24,081 bases of DNA, from positions 1-24,081 of IMG/VR virus record IMGVR_UViG_3300015372_000024; one strand, given 5' to 3'. The translations under genes and the position numbers were made by a program. Positions 8,332-22,331 of the stretch are shown here, in pieces (within the stretch, counting starts at the first letter, position 1; every line of letters starts with the position of its first letter). The notes below the pieces were generated by a model, which had not been told where the DNA came from, did no database searches, and was given only the letters and a program-made list of their open reading frames with translations. The DNA comes from a virus.

Positions 8332-8467
8332 CGGGTACCTCCGAAACGTAGATGCAGTGCAGCCGGTGGCGACGGAGCAGCGTCTTCAGTCCGGCGCGCA
8401 GGGCGTGGATGCCGTCGACATTAGGCCCCGGTCGTAAGTGCACGATGTAAGTAGGTCTATCAGTCAT
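8237..8467 (-). CDS. Small basic protein between IbrA- and IbrB-like genes (76 aa)
   Basis: Residues 1-45 (TYIVHLRPGPNVDGIHALRA then LKTLLRRHRLHCIYV) match a small-protein pattern I have seen repeatedly in phage replication and ParB neighbourhoods; its function is unknown. It starts at an ATGA junction with the IbrA-like gene. The last 31 residues are read from the same DNA as the IbrB-like N-terminus in another frame and are basic and low in complexity. The conserved core probably ends near residue 48, with the tail a frame extension. Likely a helical nucleic-acid-associated protein; that is inference. Confidence 0.65.
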   Translation of the reverse strand: MTDRPTYIVHLRPGPNVDGIHALRAGLKTLLRRHRLHCIYVSEVPDGQNSARVIRRMDRSKNAPRKFLQSKSRSAA

Positions 8468-9747
8468 GCCACCAACTCCGATACCGGCGTCACTGCCATT
8501 TCCTTCTCGTACCGCTCGCGCGCCTTGGCCACGGTCAGGCCGTGCATTCCCGGTTGCTTGCGGTCCTTGTAGTCGCCGCGCATGGCGATGACCAGAAGGA
8601 ATTGCCATGAGATCCCGGTGATCGGATGCGGGGCGCGCGGCGCGATGAAGTCTTTGGTCTTATCATGGTGGCCGTCGATCCAGCGTTTCACCCGAGCGGC
8701 AATCTCTCCGCGATACGGTTGCGGGTGCTTCTCGATCCACTGCCGGATGAACGCTGGCCACGACATGCCAGCCGGTTTATCGGGGACGCCGCCGTAGGCG
8801 TAGAGCTCGGTCTGCGAATACCGCGCTGCGGTGGCCGCGCCGGGGACGCGGTTGCTCATCTTGTCCCAAATCTCGGGGAAGCAGATGGCGAACGTCCACA
8901 GTCCGCGCATCGGTTCCTCGCCGTAGGGCGGCGCGCAGCGTTGATCGTTATGGCTGATGCCCGCCGCTTCCATCACGTCATAGGCCGCGTTGTGATCCCA
9001 ACCGAACAGCTTAGGCGCGGTCCAGACGTCAGCCGTCGACCAATCGTAGATCGGATAGACCTTGACCAGATTCTCCGCCCACGGGCGGATATATGGTCGC
9101 GTATCGGAGTGGCGCATGAGGATGGCGCGCGTCCGCGTCAGGCTCTCGTCAGCGCGAATGCCCATGACCATCGCGGTCCTGCCGTACTGAAGTTTTTCAA
9201 ACAGAAGCGGGACACTGTCCGGCATGGTCGGGCGCTTCTCTCGTTCAGCGGGGAAGCCCTCGACCTGATCGAACGTGATGGCCTCGGGCGGTAACGGACG
9301 AACCCACTTAGCCTCGTCCTCCGGAGCCCACGGATACCAATAGGGCTGCTTGCGGGTGCAGGCGTTGCGGTGCTGGATCGGCAGACAGTACCAGCGCAAC
9401 TCGAGCCCCGGCATGGCGGCGACCCGGCGAACGTAATCCTCTGTTTCGTATGGGATGGCTTCCTCGTCGTAGTGAAACACGATGAGGTTCTTGCCTCTGG
9501 CCTGCGCCGCATCCAGAGCCAGATGGAGACAGACCGTCGAGTCCTTGCCGCCGCTGAAGGACACCGCCACCGTGTCGAACAATTTGAACGCCTCGTCCAC
9601 GCGCTCGCGCGCCAGATCAAGTACGTTCTTGTCGATGGCTTTTTTCTTGGCGATCTTTCCGGTGGAGAGCGACGCGCGATCGATATCCGGAGCAACCAGA
9701 TCGTCGCCGGAAAAGCCCTCATCGGTTACGGTAACTGTTTCCTTCAT
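8464..9747 (-). CDS. IbrA-like PP-loop ATPase, PAPS-reductase family (DUF3440 type)
   Basis: A 427-residue adenine-nucleotide alpha-hydrolase. The PP-loop SGGKDS is at residues 65-70. Downstream are MGIRADESLTRTRAI, VYPIYDWSTADVW, AGISHNDQRCAPPYGEEP, CFPEIWDKMSNRVPGAA, and a C-terminal KHPQPYRGE...HHDKTKDF region. The WST(A/E)DVW and APPYGEEP blocks match IbrA/DUF3440 proteins rather than CysH: the C-terminal ECGxH redox Cys motif of true PAPS reductases is absent. The family adenylates or activates a substrate using ATP; the substrate is unknown. DndC of DNA phosphorothioation is a distant relative. The start is two bases after the cupin stop, so the genes are coupled. IbrB-like and small genes follow. 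Confidence 0.88.
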   Translation of the reverse strand: MKETVTVTDEGFSGDDLVAPDIDRASLSTGKIAKKKAIDKNVLDLARERVDEAFKLFDTVAVSFSGGKDSTVCLHLALDAAQARGKNLIVFHYDEEAIPYETEDYVRRVAAMPGLELRWYCLPIQHRNACTRKQPYWYPWAPEDEAKWVRPLPPEAITFDQVEGFPAEREKRPTMPDSVPLLFEKLQYGRTAMVMGIRADESLTRTRAILMRHSDTRPYIRPWAENLVKVYPIYDWSTADVWTAPKLFGWDHNAAYDVMEAAGISHNDQRCAPPYGEEPMRGLWTFAICFPEIWDKMSNRVPGAATAARYSQTELYAYGGVPDKPAGMSWPAFIRQWIEKHPQPYRGEIAARVKRWIDGHHDKTKDFIAPRAPHPITGISWQFLLVIAMRGDYKDRKQPGMHGLTVAKARERYEKEMAVTPVSELVA

Positions 9748-9749
9748 GC

Positions 9750-10490
9750 CTACTGCCGGATTTCCTTGGTCCGGATTTCATCAATGTCCTTGGCGCTGAC
9801 GCCCTCGACGATTGTTCTATTCAGCATGGGATGGTTCTCGTGCGTCGGGCCGAAGTCGGTGTCCGGATGAAACACAGTTAGGTCCATGCCGCTGCCGTCC
9901 GTCACGAAGGCATGGATCGCATCGGGCGCTAGGATGAACACGCGACCGGGAGTGAGATCCTCGGTGCTGTCAGCCGTGATGCATTTTCCGCGACCACCGT
10001 GGATCAGTCCGGCCCGCACGGTCGGATGCGTATGCTTGGTTTGCGTGATGCCTTGCGGAAAGTGCAACAGGTTGAAACACGGATCGCCCTTGAGCGGCGG
10101 CGCGATGAGTAAGGTGTCACTACATCCGTCGATGTACCGCAACCGGCCCACGTCTTCTACGGGACCGCCCAAGTGGCGCAGGCCCATAAATCCCAAGCGG
10201 TAGACGAAGAACGCCATCGCGTCCTTGCTGGCGAAAATCTTGATGCCGTTCTTTCCCGGCGCGGAGAAGTATTCATACTGGCGAACGGGCGTGACGAACG
10301 AGCCGCCGTGTCCGGCACCGACCACTTCGATCTGTCCGCTCATGACAAAGCCGTAGGCGGTCCCCATAGCGCCGACCGACATTCCGGCAATGTCAGAGCC
10401 GATGACGCCGTACACCGCGCAGGGAAATTCCTCGTCGCTGAAGTCGGCCATGAGGCCATGCTTCAGGTCCATGATGGTCGCGTCCTTCAA
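9750..10490 (-). CDS. Cupin-domain protein (246 aa), TTG start
   Basis: The C-terminal domain has cupin motif 1 around residues 148-168 (ITQTKHTHPTVRAGLIHGGRG, His153 and His155) and motif 2 around 179-197 (LTPGRVFILAPDAIHAF, His193), then TVFHPDTDFGPT and HPMLNRTIVEG. The N-terminal half (about 25-80) also resembles a degenerate cupin barrel, suggesting a bicupin. Cupins of this type bind Fe or Mn and act as oxygenases, isomerases or small-ligand binders; the substrate is unknown. The first codon is TTG 10490, overlapping the ParB stop (TTGA), with GGAGG five bases upstream; ATG 10472 is an alternative. Its place between ParB and IbrA-like genes links it to that module. Confidence 0.8.
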   Translation of the reverse strand: MKDATIMDLKHGLMADFSDEEFPCAVYGVIGSDIAGMSVGAMGTAYGFVMSGQIEVVGAGHGGSFVTPVRQYEYFSAPGKNGIKIFASKDAMAFFVYRLGFMGLRHLGGPVEDVGRLRYIDGCSDTLLIAPPLKGDPCFNLLHFPQGITQTKHTHPTVRAGLIHGGRGKCITADSTEDLTPGRVFILAPDAIHAFVTDGSGMDLTVFHPDTDFGPTHENHPMLNRTIVEGVSAKDIDEIRTKEIRQ

Positions 10491-11137
10491 GCCTTCCTCC
10501 CGTACTCGTCGGCTATTGCAATCAGTGCCTCGGCTGTGGTGCGCAATTTCCGGTTATCGCGCTCGGTGGCCAGCCATGCGATCACCTTGTCCCGGTCGGC
10601 TGGCATCATATCAAATTTCAAGGACACCCCGCGCGCCCCCGGCACCACCGCACTGCTTTCCTTCACGTCAGCGCCGATGATATCCGCTAGGAAACCGCCG
10701 GGGTTGAGCAGCATCAATTCCTTGTCGTCAAATCCGAGGTCGGGGATATCGAAGCCGTTGAGTTTCAGATCGTCTATTTCCAGACGGAGCAGCGCCTCAT
10801 CCCAACCAGCGAGCAAGGCAACCTTGTTATCGGATATCCGCAGCCCGCGCTTGTCAGCTTCTGAAAGCCCCCGGTGAACGACCACGGGGAATTCCGTGAA
10901 GCCTGCCTTGAGTGCCGCCAATCGCCTGCCGTGACCCTTGAGGATGACGCCGCCCTCATCGACCACGATGGGCTGGTCGACGCCATGCTTGAGCATCAGC
11001 TTGGAGAGTAATTCCACCTGTACGTCTGGATGCTCGCGGGCATTGCGGTCGTATGGCTTGATCTTTTCAAGCGCCCATTTCTCGACCACTTCGGCAGGCC
11101 AAGCGGTTTTGGAAACCGCAGCCGTCGCTTTCGCCAA
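10487..11137 (-). CDS. Phage ParB-domain protein without a methyltransferase half (216 aa), TTG start
   Basis: Residues 20-115 form a ParB N-terminal domain: KIKPYDRNAREHPD (25-38), GVDQPIVVDEGGVILKGHG (52-70) with the GHGRR box at 68-72, then FTEFPVVVHRGLSEADKRGL and RISDNKVALLAGWDEALL. In phages this exact arrangement is commonly the front half of a ParB-DNA adenine methyltransferase fusion. Here the protein stops after about 100 further residues with no DPPY or FxGxG methyltransferase motif, so it is a stand-alone or truncated version. TTG 11137 is chosen because AAGGAG lies six bases upstream and no ATG or GTG fits. It overlaps the cupin start. Confidence 0.85.
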   Translation of the reverse strand: MAKATAAVSKTAWPAEVVEKWALEKIKPYDRNAREHPDVQVELLSKLMLKHGVDQPIVVDEGGVILKGHGRRLAALKAGFTEFPVVVHRGLSEADKRGLRISDNKVALLAGWDEALLRLEIDDLKLNGFDIPDLGFDDKELMLLNPGGFLADIIGADVKESSAVVPGARGVSLKFDMMPADRDKVIAWLATERDNRKLRTTAEALIAIADEYGRKA

Positions 11138-11281: not shown

Positions 11282-11911
11282 CTATTCAGGCTTCGGAGCC
11301 AATGTCGCAATTGTCTCCGGACGCAAGGTCAATCCGCTGATTTCTTGACCGGCTTTCTTGGCGCTTTCGATGAACGCTGCTTTTTCGGCTTCGGTGTAGA
11401 TTTTCTTGGCCGCTTTCCCATTCGAAGTCTCCCCTGATAATTGCCGCGCCTGAGTATCGGTTCTGTCAAGCCATGCGCGGCCCATAGCTTTCAGCCTTTC
11501 TGTTGGGGGACCGTCAGCCTCACGTTCCGCGAACTGCTTCCTGATACGCCGCTCGCGCTCGATAGACTGCTGATGCTCCCCCGCCCTTATCTCACATGCT
11601 TCGCATATCTCGGCAACCGATGGCAGAAACTTGGACCTGCTGGCGATGCCTACGCGCGGATCAGCAACATAGTCGGTAACAAACGGCGGGTACCGGGACA
11701 GCACTGCCGCCACAGCGGCAGCATACATTTCAGGATCGTGAACCTCATCTTTTCGGTAACAGGAGAAAATCTGTTTCGCTTTCTGAAGGTCGTCCTGTGG
11801 GGACCGGCCCGAAGCTGAACTCTCCACGGCTGGCGGCTTCTGCGAGGCGCGCAGCGGCACGGCTGACGCTGCGGCTATCGTCCTGAAATGCTCTTGGTCT
11901 TCCTTGTCCAT
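11282..11911 (-). CDS. Replication-associated phage hypothetical (209 aa)
   Basis: The core, about residues 45-115, reads DLQKAKQIFSCYR, AAVAAVLSRYPPFVTDYVADP, RVGIASRSKFLPSVAEI and CEACE. The FLPSVAEI segment is typical of small phage proteins placed after O-like initiators, which may be helicase-loading or replisome accessory factors; this role is inferred from position and remembered similarity. The C-terminal half is charged and helical. ATG 11911 follows GGAG of an AAATGGAG leader (11918-11925, minus strand) by six bases. The first 167 bases overlap the end of the initiator gene in another frame, and core sequence falls within the overlap, so a later start is unlikely. Confidence 0.7.
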   Translation of the reverse strand: MDKEDQEHFRTIAAASAVPLRASQKPPAVESSASGRSPQDDLQKAKQIFSCYRKDEVHDPEMYAAAVAAVLSRYPPFVTDYVADPRVGIASRSKFLPSVAEICEACEIRAGEHQQSIERERRIRKQFAEREADGPPTERLKAMGRAWLDRTDTQARQLSGETSNGKAAKKIYTEAEKAAFIESAKKAGQEISGLTLRPETIATLAPKPE

Positions 11912-12548
11912 AGTTGGCTCCATTTGATCTGGCGCGTTCTGCTTCACGGCGCAGCCAGCCCTCGAACGCACGGGACCAGTTGCGCTTACGACCTATCGGC
12001 CTGTCGGAGTTTTCATCGGCCCAACTCTTCAGCGTTTCAGCAGCATCAAGGACTTGCTGCTCGGTCAGGCCGCGCGATTTACCGTAACTCATGAGTTCAG
12101 GGGAAACCGACCAACCGGACGGCAAAACAGTTTTTGGTGCCGCCCCCCTCCTACTATTACTAACTGAGGGTTCTATTGAGGGTTCAAGGGGGGTCAGCAG
12201 TGACCCCCCGGGGGGGTCTGTAGTGACCCGGGGGTCTATTAGACCCCCCCCGGGGTGTCCATTAGAAGACACCCCCCCTCCTACCAACACCGTGAACATG
12301 CTGGACGCCTGACTGCCGTTATCCCGGTAGCGATCCTCACGCTTCAGGAAATTGCTCGCCACCAAATACCGGATCGCCCGCTTAACGGACGATTCGGATA
12401 ATTCGCACCGCCTGCCAATGTTACCGAGTGACGGCCAGCACCGTCCGGTTTCATCGTCGGCACTATCTGCCAGAGCGATCAGCACGATCTTGGCCTTTGG
12501 TTCACCGACCACGGCGTCAAAGGCCCATGTCATTGCGCGTATAGACAT
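11745..12548 (-). CDS. O-like phage replication initiator with winged-helix domain (267 aa)
   Basis: Residues 1-95 form a helix-turn-helix domain of the phage replication type: MTWAFDAVVG, AKIVLIALADSADDETGRCWP, SLGNIGRRCELSESSVKRAI and RYLVASNFLKREDRYR. A Gly/Pro-rich linker follows (about 100-150: GGGLIDP, TTDPPGGS, EPSIEPSVS), then a C-terminal region with WSRAFEGWLRREAERAR and FSFGPVP. This two-domain plan matches lambda O-like proteins, which bind the origin through the N-terminal domain and recruit helicase through the C-terminal one. As in lambda, the DNA encoding the linker contains an inverted-repeat cluster (12188-12275). ATG 12548 has GGAGGGGG upstream. The gene is first in the leftward operon. 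Confidence 0.8.
   Translation of the reverse strand: MSIRAMTWAFDAVVGEPKAKIVLIALADSADDETGRCWPSLGNIGRRCELSESSVKRAIRYLVASNFLKREDRYRDNGSQASSMFTVLVGGGVSSNGHPGGGLIDPRVTTDPPGGSLLTPLEPSIEPSVSNSRRGAAPKTVLPSGWSVSPELMSYGKSRGLTEQQVLDAAETLKSWADENSDRPIGRKRNWSRAFEGWLRREAERARSNGANYGQGRPRAFQDDSRSVSRAAARLAEAASRGEFSFGPVPTGRPSESETDFLLLPKR
12160..12280. other. Candidate replication origin inside the initiator gene
   Basis: The linker-coding part of the initiator holds perfect inverted repeats in series: GGGGGGTCA-GCAG-TGACCCCCC (12188-12209); the CCCCCCGGGGGG junction (12204-12215); GGGGGTCTA-T-TAGACCCCC (12230-12248); and GGGGTGTC-CATTAGAA-GACACCCC (12252-12275). Two direct repeats TGAGGGTTC (12165-12173 and 12177-12185) lie in an A/T-richer stretch beside them (about 12148-12186). 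Known lambdoid origins sit at this position within the O gene. Attenuation or a transcription block is an alternative. The protein linker is unconstrained, leaving DNA free to carry the signal. Confidence 0.55.
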
Positions 12549-12815
12549 AGGTTGGCCCCCTCCATTGGAGCGATCAGTTGTCCGGTAAAACGCTGAACGG
12601 GAAATCGGGACTGTGCACGGTACGCGCAGAGTTGCCGGAAACAAAATCACCTGTGCGCGCTGTGCACAATTCAGTGGAAAGTCGGTCAGTGGTGCTGACG
12701 CACACGAGCGAGCGACTATCCGCGAATCACGTAACATCGAGCAAATAAACTGATGGCGCGCTCCATCGCCGGGGGTATGCTGCCCTATTCAACAAATCGG
12801 AAAGGGACTGACGCA
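12549..12815. promoter_or_regulatory. Divergent control region between replication and early operons
   Basis: Leftward (12548) and rightward (12816) genes diverge here. Candidate operator elements are TGTGCAC (12612-12618), CTGTGC at 12611, 12651 and 12660, the palindrome TGTGCACA (12661-12668), and GTCAG-TGGTG-CTGAC at about 12683-12699. I could not fix a convincing pair of sigma-70 boxes in either direction. An in-frame ATG at 12753 extends the rightward frame but has a poor ribosome-binding site. Confidence 0.5.
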
Positions 12816-13577
12816 ATGAGCAACGAACTCAAGCACCCTAGGGCGCTGGCCATCGCCAAGAAAGGTGAGAGCGCACTTTGGGATATGGGCGACTACCTGA
12901 TTGAGATCGGCGGCAGAGACGCGAAGCTGGCGGAGGTTTCCGAAGAACTGAGTGAGCACGGATACCCTCAATATACCCCGCAGTATATGGGGATGCTCCG
13001 TGGGACTGCTCTGGCATTCAATCCCGTAAACCGGGTTTACGCTGTATCGTGGACCGCTCACTACGTCGCTGGATCGTCTGAGGTCCTTCAGGCGGTAATT
13101 GCCGCCGCTAAAGCGCAGGGCCGTAAGGGTGTCTCCAAGCGGTTTGTCCAGCAAGTGATGAACGGCATGGATGCGGATCACCGCGCCAAGCGTAAGGGTC
13201 TTTCGATCAGAGCCGAAAAAGCGGCTGTTCGCGCTGAGGCCAAGGGTGACAGAAAAGCCGCCGAACGTAATCGCGAACGCGCTCGTAAACTGAAGGGCGC
13301 GCCGCAACGCGATCCGTCTAAACGTATCGCACCGAAGCCGGAAGATACTCCGCTGTTGGTGATCAAGTCTAAGTTCATGGCTGACAGTTCGGAGGCGCTG
13401 GCATTAGTCAAGCGCATGGATAAGGAAATCAGCCCGCACATTGATGACCTGTCGAAGGCGTTCATCACCGGCAGCGTCGAAGAACTTCTGGAAATCGCTG
13501 AAAACTTCCGGAAGCTGGCTGCGAAGCTCAATCGCAACCAGACTAATAAGCGCTCGCATTTACATGCGGTCGCTTGA
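12816..13577 (+). CDS. Putative DNA-binding regulator, first rightward gene (253 aa)
   Basis: No named family. Residues 10-60 include AKKGESALWDMGDYLIEIGG and VSEELSEHGYPQYTPQYMGM, which reads like a helix-turn-helix arrangement; NRVYAVSWTAHYVAGSSEVLQ and KGVSKRFVQQVMNG follow. A highly basic coiled segment (about 130-180) and an acidic helical C-terminus complete it. Proteins with this R/S/H-A-A pattern occur in phage early operons and are assumed to bind DNA. Its place immediately right of the divergent region fits a repressor or switch protein, but that is inference. ATG 12816 follows GGAAAGGG within about eight bases and is preferred over ATG 12753. Confidence 0.65.
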   Translation: MSNELKHPRALAIAKKGESALWDMGDYLIEIGGRDAKLAEVSEELSEHGYPQYTPQYMGMLRGTALAFNPVNRVYAVSWTAHYVAGSSEVLQAVIAAAKAQGRKGVSKRFVQQVMNGMDADHRAKRKGLSIRAEKAAVRAEAKGDRKAAERNRERARKLKGAPQRDPSKRIAPKPEDTPLLVIKSKFMADSSEALALVKRMDKEISPHIDDLSKAFITGSVEELLEIAENFRKLAAKLNRNQTNKRSHLHAVA

Positions 13578-20777: not shown

Positions 20778-21551
20778 ATGAAGAAACTCGGACTGCTCAC
20801 GGGCATGGCCATGCTCTTGAGTTGCGGGACAGGTCAGGCCGTCACGCTTGGCGGTCAGAACTGGACCTCTACTGGCACCGTATTGACACTGTCTCCGACA
20901 GTGCCAAGCGGCAATCAACCACTGAACATTCAGTGCATTATCTGCGGTGATAATCAGCCGCAGCAACAAGCGGACTTCGGCTACACCAACTTCCACAACA
21001 CTGGCTCGATGAGTGACATTCTGTACTTCTCGACCAATGTGGCGGGAGGCGGCAACCCCGGAGCAGACACGGTCGGCATCGGCTATGATGGCTCATTCTT
21101 ACGCGACTACATCGCCGCTCACGGCAGCGTCAATCTGACCTTTCAGGTCGGCATCGACGTGAACGACGCCGGTAAAACACCGCAGGTTCTGGAAAGTTTT
21201 TATCTCCTGAACCTGACGCAGCATAAGGTCTTGGCATCGTTTCAAGGGCCAGCAGACATTGGCTCGCAGAACAACGGGACCGGCTTTCCTGACTTCATCT
21301 TGGAAGGCTTCGACCTCAACTTCGGCACGGACTTCGTCCTTGGCGATCAGTTGATCTTCTTCGCTCGCATCAGCAATGCGAGCGATGGTCCGGACTCATT
21401 CTTCTTGATTCCGAATCAGGAAATCGTCACGCCGATTCCAGCAGCCGTATGGCTGTTTGGCAGCGGCTTAGCTGGCCTCGGCGTACTCGCGCGTCGTCGG
21501 CGCAAGCAGAAGCAAGTTTCCACACCTGTTGATGCACCGCTCGCATCATAA
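20778..21551 (+). CDS. Secreted protein with VPLPA-CTERM sorting signal (257 aa)
   Basis: The N-terminal signal peptide (residues 1-21, KKLGLLTGMAMLLSCGTGQA) is followed by a Gly/Asn/Thr-rich beta-type ectodomain with a CIIC pair (53-56). The C-terminus has PIPAAVWLFGSGLAGLGVLA (219-238), then RRRRKQ. That is the three-part PEP-CTERM/VPLPA-CTERM arrangement: motif, hydrophobic helix, Arg cluster. Host exosortases cut such tails and place proteins on the surface or in biofilm matrix. Twelve residues follow the Arg cluster, slightly longer than usual. Base composition is lower in GC and richer in Asn/Thr than the neighbours. No exosortase is in the window, so the host would have to supply it. 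Confidence 0.88.
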   Translation: MKKLGLLTGMAMLLSCGTGQAVTLGGQNWTSTGTVLTLSPTVPSGNQPLNIQCIICGDNQPQQQADFGYTNFHNTGSMSDILYFSTNVAGGGNPGADTVGIGYDGSFLRDYIAAHGSVNLTFQVGIDVNDAGKTPQVLESFYLLNLTQHKVLASFQGPADIGSQNNGTGFPDFILEGFDLNFGTDFVLGDQLIFFARISNASDGPDSFFLIPNQEIVTPIPAAVWLFGSGLAGLGVLARRRRKQKQVSTPVDAPLAS

Positions 21552-21623: not shown

Positions 21624-22331
21624 ATGAGAAAGCTGTTACTTGCTACTGCCACCTTGCTGGCCATGTCGGTCAGCGCGATGGCTGGCACCATGAACCTGAT
21701 GCTTGATCAGGATAGTGGTGCGTTTACCCAAACGTTCTTGGGAGCGCCGGGTCAATCGACCTTCAACGCTACCAATGCTTCATTTGGTAACTTCAATATC
21801 GTCAACATCACCGGCAGCACGACACCCACTACGTCTGCTCCGATCCTGTTGACGAGTAATACGCTTGATGTGCAAACCACGACTACAACTGCGCACACCT
21901 TGCAAGTGTGGATCACAGCGAATGATCTCACCAGCCCAATTCAACTGGTCGATTTCTTCTCTGGCTTCACCAACGTCGCCCTGTCGAATGGATGGTCGGT
22001 CACGCTCGAAAGTCTCGTGAGCACGACCAATCAGATGTTCGCAGGAACGCAACTCGCCACCGACACCTTTGTCGGCGGCGTCATCCCCACCGTGTTCGCC
22101 TCCAACTTCAACGACCAATTCGATGTTGGCGACGGACCTTATTCACTGACCGCGCACTACACCATCCTCACGGATGGGCTTGGTCAGGCGAATAGCGGCA
22201 TCACCGTTTCAGGCGTGGAGGCAACTCCGCTTCCTGCGGCGGTGTGGATGTTTGGTGGCGGGCTTGCTGGCCTCGGCGCTCTGTTGCGTCGTCGCAAGAA
22301 ACAGCAGTCTGCTGAACCGCAGGCGGCATAA
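21624..22331 (+). CDS. Second secreted VPLPA-CTERM protein (235 aa)
   Basis: It has a clean signal peptide (RKLLLATATLLAMSVSAMA, cut near residue 20), a Thr/Asn/Ser-rich beta-type ectodomain without Cys (for example NFNIVNITGSTTPTTSAP and DVQTTTTTAHTLQVW), and the C-terminal signal TPLPAAVWMFGGGLAGLGAL (201-220) with an RRRKKQ cluster. Its tail is very similar to that of the preceding protein, while the ectodomains differ, so the pair probably arose by shared targeting rather than simple duplication. Expected fate: export, then processing by a host exosortase at the inner membrane. The pair, with its own promoter and terminator, looks like a lysogenic-conversion cassette. Confidence 0.88.
   Translation: MRKLLLATATLLAMSVSAMAGTMNLMLDQDSGAFTQTFLGAPGQSTFNATNASFGNFNIVNITGSTTPTTSAPILLTSNTLDVQTTTTTAHTLQVWITANDLTSPIQLVDFFSGFTNVALSNGWSVTLESLVSTTNQMFAGTQLATDTFVGGVIPTVFASNFNDQFDVGDGPYSLTAHYTILTDGLGQANSGITVSGVEATPLPAAVWMFGGGLAGLGALLRRRKKQQSAEPQAA

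Follow-up and report, generated by a model that had tools for sequence, protein, structure and literature searches.

The DNA analysed here, a 24,081-base virus record, is referred to as the window in its whole length. Its minus strand carries a gene that the sequence-only reading had called a replication initiator with an origin-like cluster of inverted repeats inside it. Profile searches bear out the identity of the gene. Its product matches Pfam HTH_36 above the cut-off (4.7e-12) and two PHROG families annotated as 'replication initiation O-like' (phrog_1032, 2e-21; phrog_391, 3.5e-21), and domain and profile match together place it among the HTH_36 O-like phage initiators (PHROG 391, 1032, 270). 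The listed open reading frame has 330 aa; translation probably starts at 12548, at an ATG behind GGAGGGGG, which gives a protein of 267 aa. An AlphaFold2 model built from 38 sequences was used to delimit its domains. The features are as follows:

11745-12548, minus strand: initiator gene, 267 aa (Pfam HTH_36 match, PHROG O-like, AlphaFold2 model)
aa 1-90: winged-helix HTH_36 domain, confident in the AlphaFold2 model
aa 52-64: recognition helix (AlphaFold2 model)
aa ~93-133: disordered linker (AlphaFold2 model)
aa ~150-211: C-terminal helical domain (AlphaFold2 model)
12255-12272, no strand: unit 1 in gene order, core GTGTC-N8-GACAC, arms reaching 12252-12275
12232-12246, no strand: unit 2, core GGGTC-N5-GACCC, arms reaching 12230-12248
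12214-12229, no strand: unit 3, core GGGTC-N6-GACCC, in register at 23 bp from unit 4
12191-12206, no strand: unit 4, core GGGTC-N6-GACCC, arms reaching 12188-12209
12150-12187, minus strand: A/T-richer strip directly downstream of the array, candidate unwinding element with two TGAGGGTTC repeats

The four palindromic units have their centres at 12263.5, 12239, 12221.5 and 12198.5, that is, at distances of 24.5, 17.5 and 23 bp, and share the core GGGTC-N5-6-GACCC except for the outermost one. Three perfect inverted repeats with arms of 8-9 bases, a G/C junction and two TGAGGGTTC repeats had been described earlier, and all are present: the repeats lie at 12188-12209 (arms 9, loop 4), 12230-12248 (arms 9, loop 1) and 12252-12275 (arms 8, loop 8). 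The count of three is, however, incomplete, as these repeats belong to a regular four-unit array in which unit 3 (GGGTCTGTAGTGACCC, 12214-12229) is palindromic only in its 5-bp core. A fourth perfect inverted repeat, 12202-12218, is the CCCCCCGGGGGGG junction; this C6G6 junction is the place where abutting arms of neighbouring units meet. The array lies ~270 bp into the gene and encodes aa ~92-121, which places inverted repeats at ~20-bp spacing within the reading frame of the initiator, past its DNA-binding domain. The assigned location, between the DNA-binding and the C-terminal domain, is thus correct, and the stretch is Gly/Pro-rich and disordered in the model. In a near-identical contig of 40,047 bases, 10 differences were found over 6,810 bases compared, none of them in the repeats.

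The A/T-richer strip is present as well, but the enrichment is modest: AT content is 63% over the 30 bp at 12150-12179, compared with 23-37% across most of the array. Its TGAGGGTTC repeats, at 12165-12173 and 12177-12185, read GAACCCTCA on the coding strand and encode EPSxEPS. The same peptide motif follows the arrays in the window (12150-12187) and at three related loci (L162, L170, L180), where direct repeats of roughly GAACCATCA specify it (GAACCCTCA in the window). Beyond being a protein motif, these repeats are possibly a second DNA element, for example a repeat of the unwinding region.

By sequence, the PDB holds no close relative of the initiator, and Foldseek returned generic winged helices, many of the best matches being transcription regulators. 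The Pfam lambda O model does not match; HTH_36 is the sole Pfam match at E<=0.001, and the protein therefore stands outside the lambda O sequence family even if, by analogy, it may work in a lambda-O-like manner. Genes for an Erf-like annealing protein, a YqaJ exonuclease and a ParB-like protein are found nearby and fit a phage early region.

Palindromes in the window and in related genes

The pattern GGGTC-N4-8-GACCC occurs three times in the 24 kb, always in the array, against an expectation of 0.09. With a palindrome score of 14, the linker ranks highest among all 150-nt windows of the record. This score was reached by none of 5000 linkers with permuted synonymous codons, nor by any of 5000 that drew their synonymous codons by resampling from the gene. 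On the same scale lambda O scores 3, a value reached by 16 of 5000 permuted and 2 of 5000 resampled sequences. The units lie in gene frames 0, 2, 1 and 0 and consequently encode different peptides. As neither codon control reproduces the score and the frames are mixed, the protein does not explain the palindromes; they are a DNA-level feature under DNA-level selection.

Relatives were collected by homology, using the HTH domain only in a search of viral contigs and bacterial genomes, and were supplemented with matches to the whole Pam5 protein and with phage records. This yielded 261 genes, of which 76 were left after dereplication at 75% HTH identity. Their linker DNA has a palindrome score of 4.47, against 1.00 after codon permutation (z 24.4). 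Strong palindromy is confined to the linker: the corresponding values are 0.91 and 0.71 for the HTH part, 1.07 and 0.72 for the C-terminal part behind the linker, and 0.74 and 0.68 (z 0.7) for other genes on the same loci. The expectation that the repeats would be conserved among relatives despite a variable protein is thus supported. Some relatives have little palindrome excess (e.g. L170 and L003), although direct repeats are visible in L170.

Motif extraction showed that the arrays of the family mostly comprise 3-7 units and begin ~60 nt behind the HTH, with peaks of unit spacing at ~17 and ~22 bp. Units are distributed over the three frames as 76/76/98, an approximate count given that it includes some weak matches; frames are mixed in 45 of 49 arrays. 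Immediately behind the array, over 50 bp, AT content rises family-wide to ~9-14 points above the gene mean. The half-sites themselves differ between lineages; examples are GTCCGCC/GGCGGAC, GTTACC/GGTAAC, GTCTCA/TGAGAC, GGGTGCAA/TTGCACCC, CGAAC/GTTCG, CCGCAG/CTGCGG, CCGGCA/TGCCGG and GGGGTCA/TGACCCC. Since palindromy is kept while the sequence varies, a change in one arm comes with the corresponding change in the opposite arm. A single universal half-site for the family was accordingly rejected, and the G/C arms, which had been taken as unusual and as a possible sign of a distinct design, are one of many half-site types.

A divergent alignment of 13 proteins contained no pattern sufficiently conserved to search a collection with. 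A DNA-only scan of viral contigs with GGGGTCA-N5-TGACCCC, which uses no protein information, returned at least 120 loci. Of the 120 loci listed, 22 carry the palindrome within an HTH initiator ORF, in every case downstream of the HTH, while such ORFs make up 2.3% of the bases (enrichment p 5e-14, the 22 loci not being dereplicated and including some close relatives). A two-unit pattern gave 28 loci, with most arrays in an ORF that, judging translations by eye, has an apparent upstream helix-turn-helix. The GGGGTCA/TGACCCC half-site (L015-L156, viral contigs) was seen in linkers from several types of initiator that seem unrelated in overall sequence, which suggests either a widely shared helix or convergence.

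Half-sites and the recognition helix

Because an initiator gene encodes the binding domain and also harbours the sites that this domain is predicted to bind, every such gene constitutes a matched protein-DNA pair. Covariation was analysed in 91 genes dereplicated at 85%. The similarity of the palindromic 5-mers is correlated with recognition-helix identity once identity in the remainder of the domain is corrected for (partial r 0.172, permutation p 0.0005), the control consisting of domain identity and permutation rather than a full phylogenetic model. The strongest four alignment columns correspond to R57, K56, S53 and E52 of the window protein. All are in the recognition helix, an outcome that none of 1000 permutations gave; each also exceeds 0.117, the maximum over all columns in any permutation. 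When the linkers were codon-shuffled, only a fraction of the association between helix and half-site was left.

Particular residues go with particular half-sites, and because these pairings were chosen after the data had been seen, their p-values are descriptive only: GTCA..TGAC palindromes are found in 9 of 23 genes with R57 and in 2 of 68 others (p 4e-5), CGCA-N5-TGC in 27 of 45 with Q/H56 and 3 of 46 others, and GTCC..GGAC in 5 of 7 with I/M56 plus R52 and 0 of 84 others. The window initiator combines R57 with its GGGTCA..TGACCC array. In the R57 group, codon-shuffled linkers contained GTCA..TGAC in a mean of 4.1 of 23 cases (maximum 8 in 200), compared with the 9 observed; as shuffled linkers retain the motif, the pairing partly runs through the amino acids of the linker. 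Lysine at position 56 was also considered as a determinant of GTCA, but was not significant (p 0.07), and R57 performed better.

For the HTH_36 phage initiators as a class, we lean towards the view that their own genes hold a readable record of DNA specificity, with half-sites that covary with a few helix residues (R57, Q/H56, I/M56 plus R52). The origin would then be predictable from the protein, and origin exclusion groups could be assigned for many uncultured phages. With the matched pairs, a recognition code for phage origins can be tested directly, and they would allow origins in viral metagenomes to be located from sequence alone. They are also a strong example of one DNA carrying two codes at once, that of a protein and that of a binding site. 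We regard this wider family result as more important than the individual locus.

Probable origin function, alternative readings and known systems

The cluster is very probably the replication origin of the phage, or the initiator-binding part of it, similar to ori-lambda and bound by the product of the gene in which it lies. The covariation of helix and half-sites points to binding of the iterons by the initiator, while the further steps are modelled on lambda O. Dimers of the O-like initiator would bind the four palindromic iterons, which sit in the DNA coding for the initiator's own linker, via the winged helix. The resulting nucleoprotein complex would open the A/T-richer strip next to the iterons, and recruitment of the replicative helicase or its loader may fall to the C-terminal domain. 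Among uncultured phages, the locus would thereby be a well-supported case of an origin of the lambda type.

An alternative is that the palindromes are operators, through which the HTH protein represses its own transcription or blocks elongation, with the origin elsewhere. Winged-helix proteins are often repressors, many of the best Foldseek matches are transcription regulators, and the covariation demonstrates matching of protein and DNA rather than replication. We nevertheless consider this improbable. The array lies well inside the gene, a search of 11600-12900 gave no sigma-70-like promoter, the protein belongs to O-like replication families, and the A/T-rich element that follows the arrays family-wide would not be needed by an operator. 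In addition, the precedents of lambda, P22 and L are origins or inferred origins (PMC8022706). Operator function therefore fits worse than a lambda-type origin.

Even less probable is a role of the hairpins in mRNA or in the nascent strand, as terminator, attenuator or pausing element. The stems are G/C-rich and the strand does fold better than shuffled sequences (z -3.8, DNA parameters), but a search of the array revealed no terminator-like site, and an RNA hairpin does not predict half-sites that covary with a DNA-recognition helix. A terminator or promoter reading of the array was likewise discarded, as there are no such sites in it. That the palindromes result incidentally from G/C codon bias and a repetitive G/P-rich linker of low complexity might be suspected from the composition of the disordered linker; this is hardly credible given the loss of the signal on same-protein codon permutation and resampling (0/5000 each) and the use of three frames encoding different peptides in the window, with mixed frames in nearly all family arrays. 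GC skew was rejected as an origin marker, being confounded by gene orientation. Its minimum in the window (12563) coincides with a switch of gene orientation and is therefore uninformative on the origin; the near-identical 40-kb contig has its lowest skew near 39.6 kb.

Among known systems, the lambda-type origin that we favour is closest to ori-lambda, as had been proposed from the mid-gene position. Lambda iterons are imperfect inverted repeats with contacted G-tracks in the middle of O, with an AT-rich tract directly downstream (PMC7466680), and the lambda record has four annotated 18-bp iterons mid-O, 20, 24 and 23 bp apart. Both systems have an N-terminal DNA-binding domain and four mid-gene inverted-repeat units, and the A/T-richer strip of the window is a candidate counterpart of the lambda tract. 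They differ in the half-site (TCCCTC/GAGGGA in lambda, GGGTC in the window), in the longer G/C arms and stronger palindromy of the window (14 compared with 3), in its less A/T-rich strip and in the protein family, HTH_36 as opposed to the Pfam lambda O model. Since lambda O shares the layout, the intragenic-origin design was already known, and the suggestion of a different origin design is not supported: on the best reading, the window has the known lambda-type design, which lambda, P22 and phage L show with different iterons.

Gene 18 of P22 and of phage L encodes O-analogous initiators, and the separate sets of repeats within the two genes are taken as the origin; repeats and proteins are unlike those of the window in sequence, and in the accessible part of that article they are described as repeats, with no analysis of palindromy or specificity residues (PMC8022706). 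The initiator of Pseudanabaena phage Pam5 (L004) has the SESSVK helix start, the same half-site and three copies of GGGGTCAGAATGTGACCCC after the HTH, but is only 32% identical overall, and its half-sites stand slightly further apart. Iteron-like origins are reported for the HTH_36 Rep modules of Paracoccus plasmids, one of them overlapping the rep start (PMC3832669). They share with the window an HTH_36 initiator with iteron-like repeats, but these lie in separate oriVs, once reaching the rep start codon, and not mid-gene, which counts against the origin reading. For a mycobacteriophage, an origin within or adjoining repA has been suggested (PMC7157519). In the literature searched, which mostly lay outside subscription papers, we found no report of a family-wide palindrome signal or of the helix/half-site association. 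The family-wide pattern and the covariation are the new parts, although priority is not established.

Further genes on the record

Several other genes were noted on the record. At 893-2491 on the plus strand lies a large AAA ATPase matching phrog_8638 (1.7e-166), a family of phage proteins with no assigned function. A PAPS-reductase-like gene (8464-9747, minus strand) is located near the ParB-like gene (10487-11137, minus strand), and the two are possibly part of a DNA-modification or cargo cluster. Two adjacent plus-strand genes (20778-21551 and 21624-22331) carry VPLPA-CTERM (TIGR03370) signals for exosortase sorting at their ends, both above the curated cut-off; they are unusual on a virus record and represent either phage cargo or host-derived sequence.
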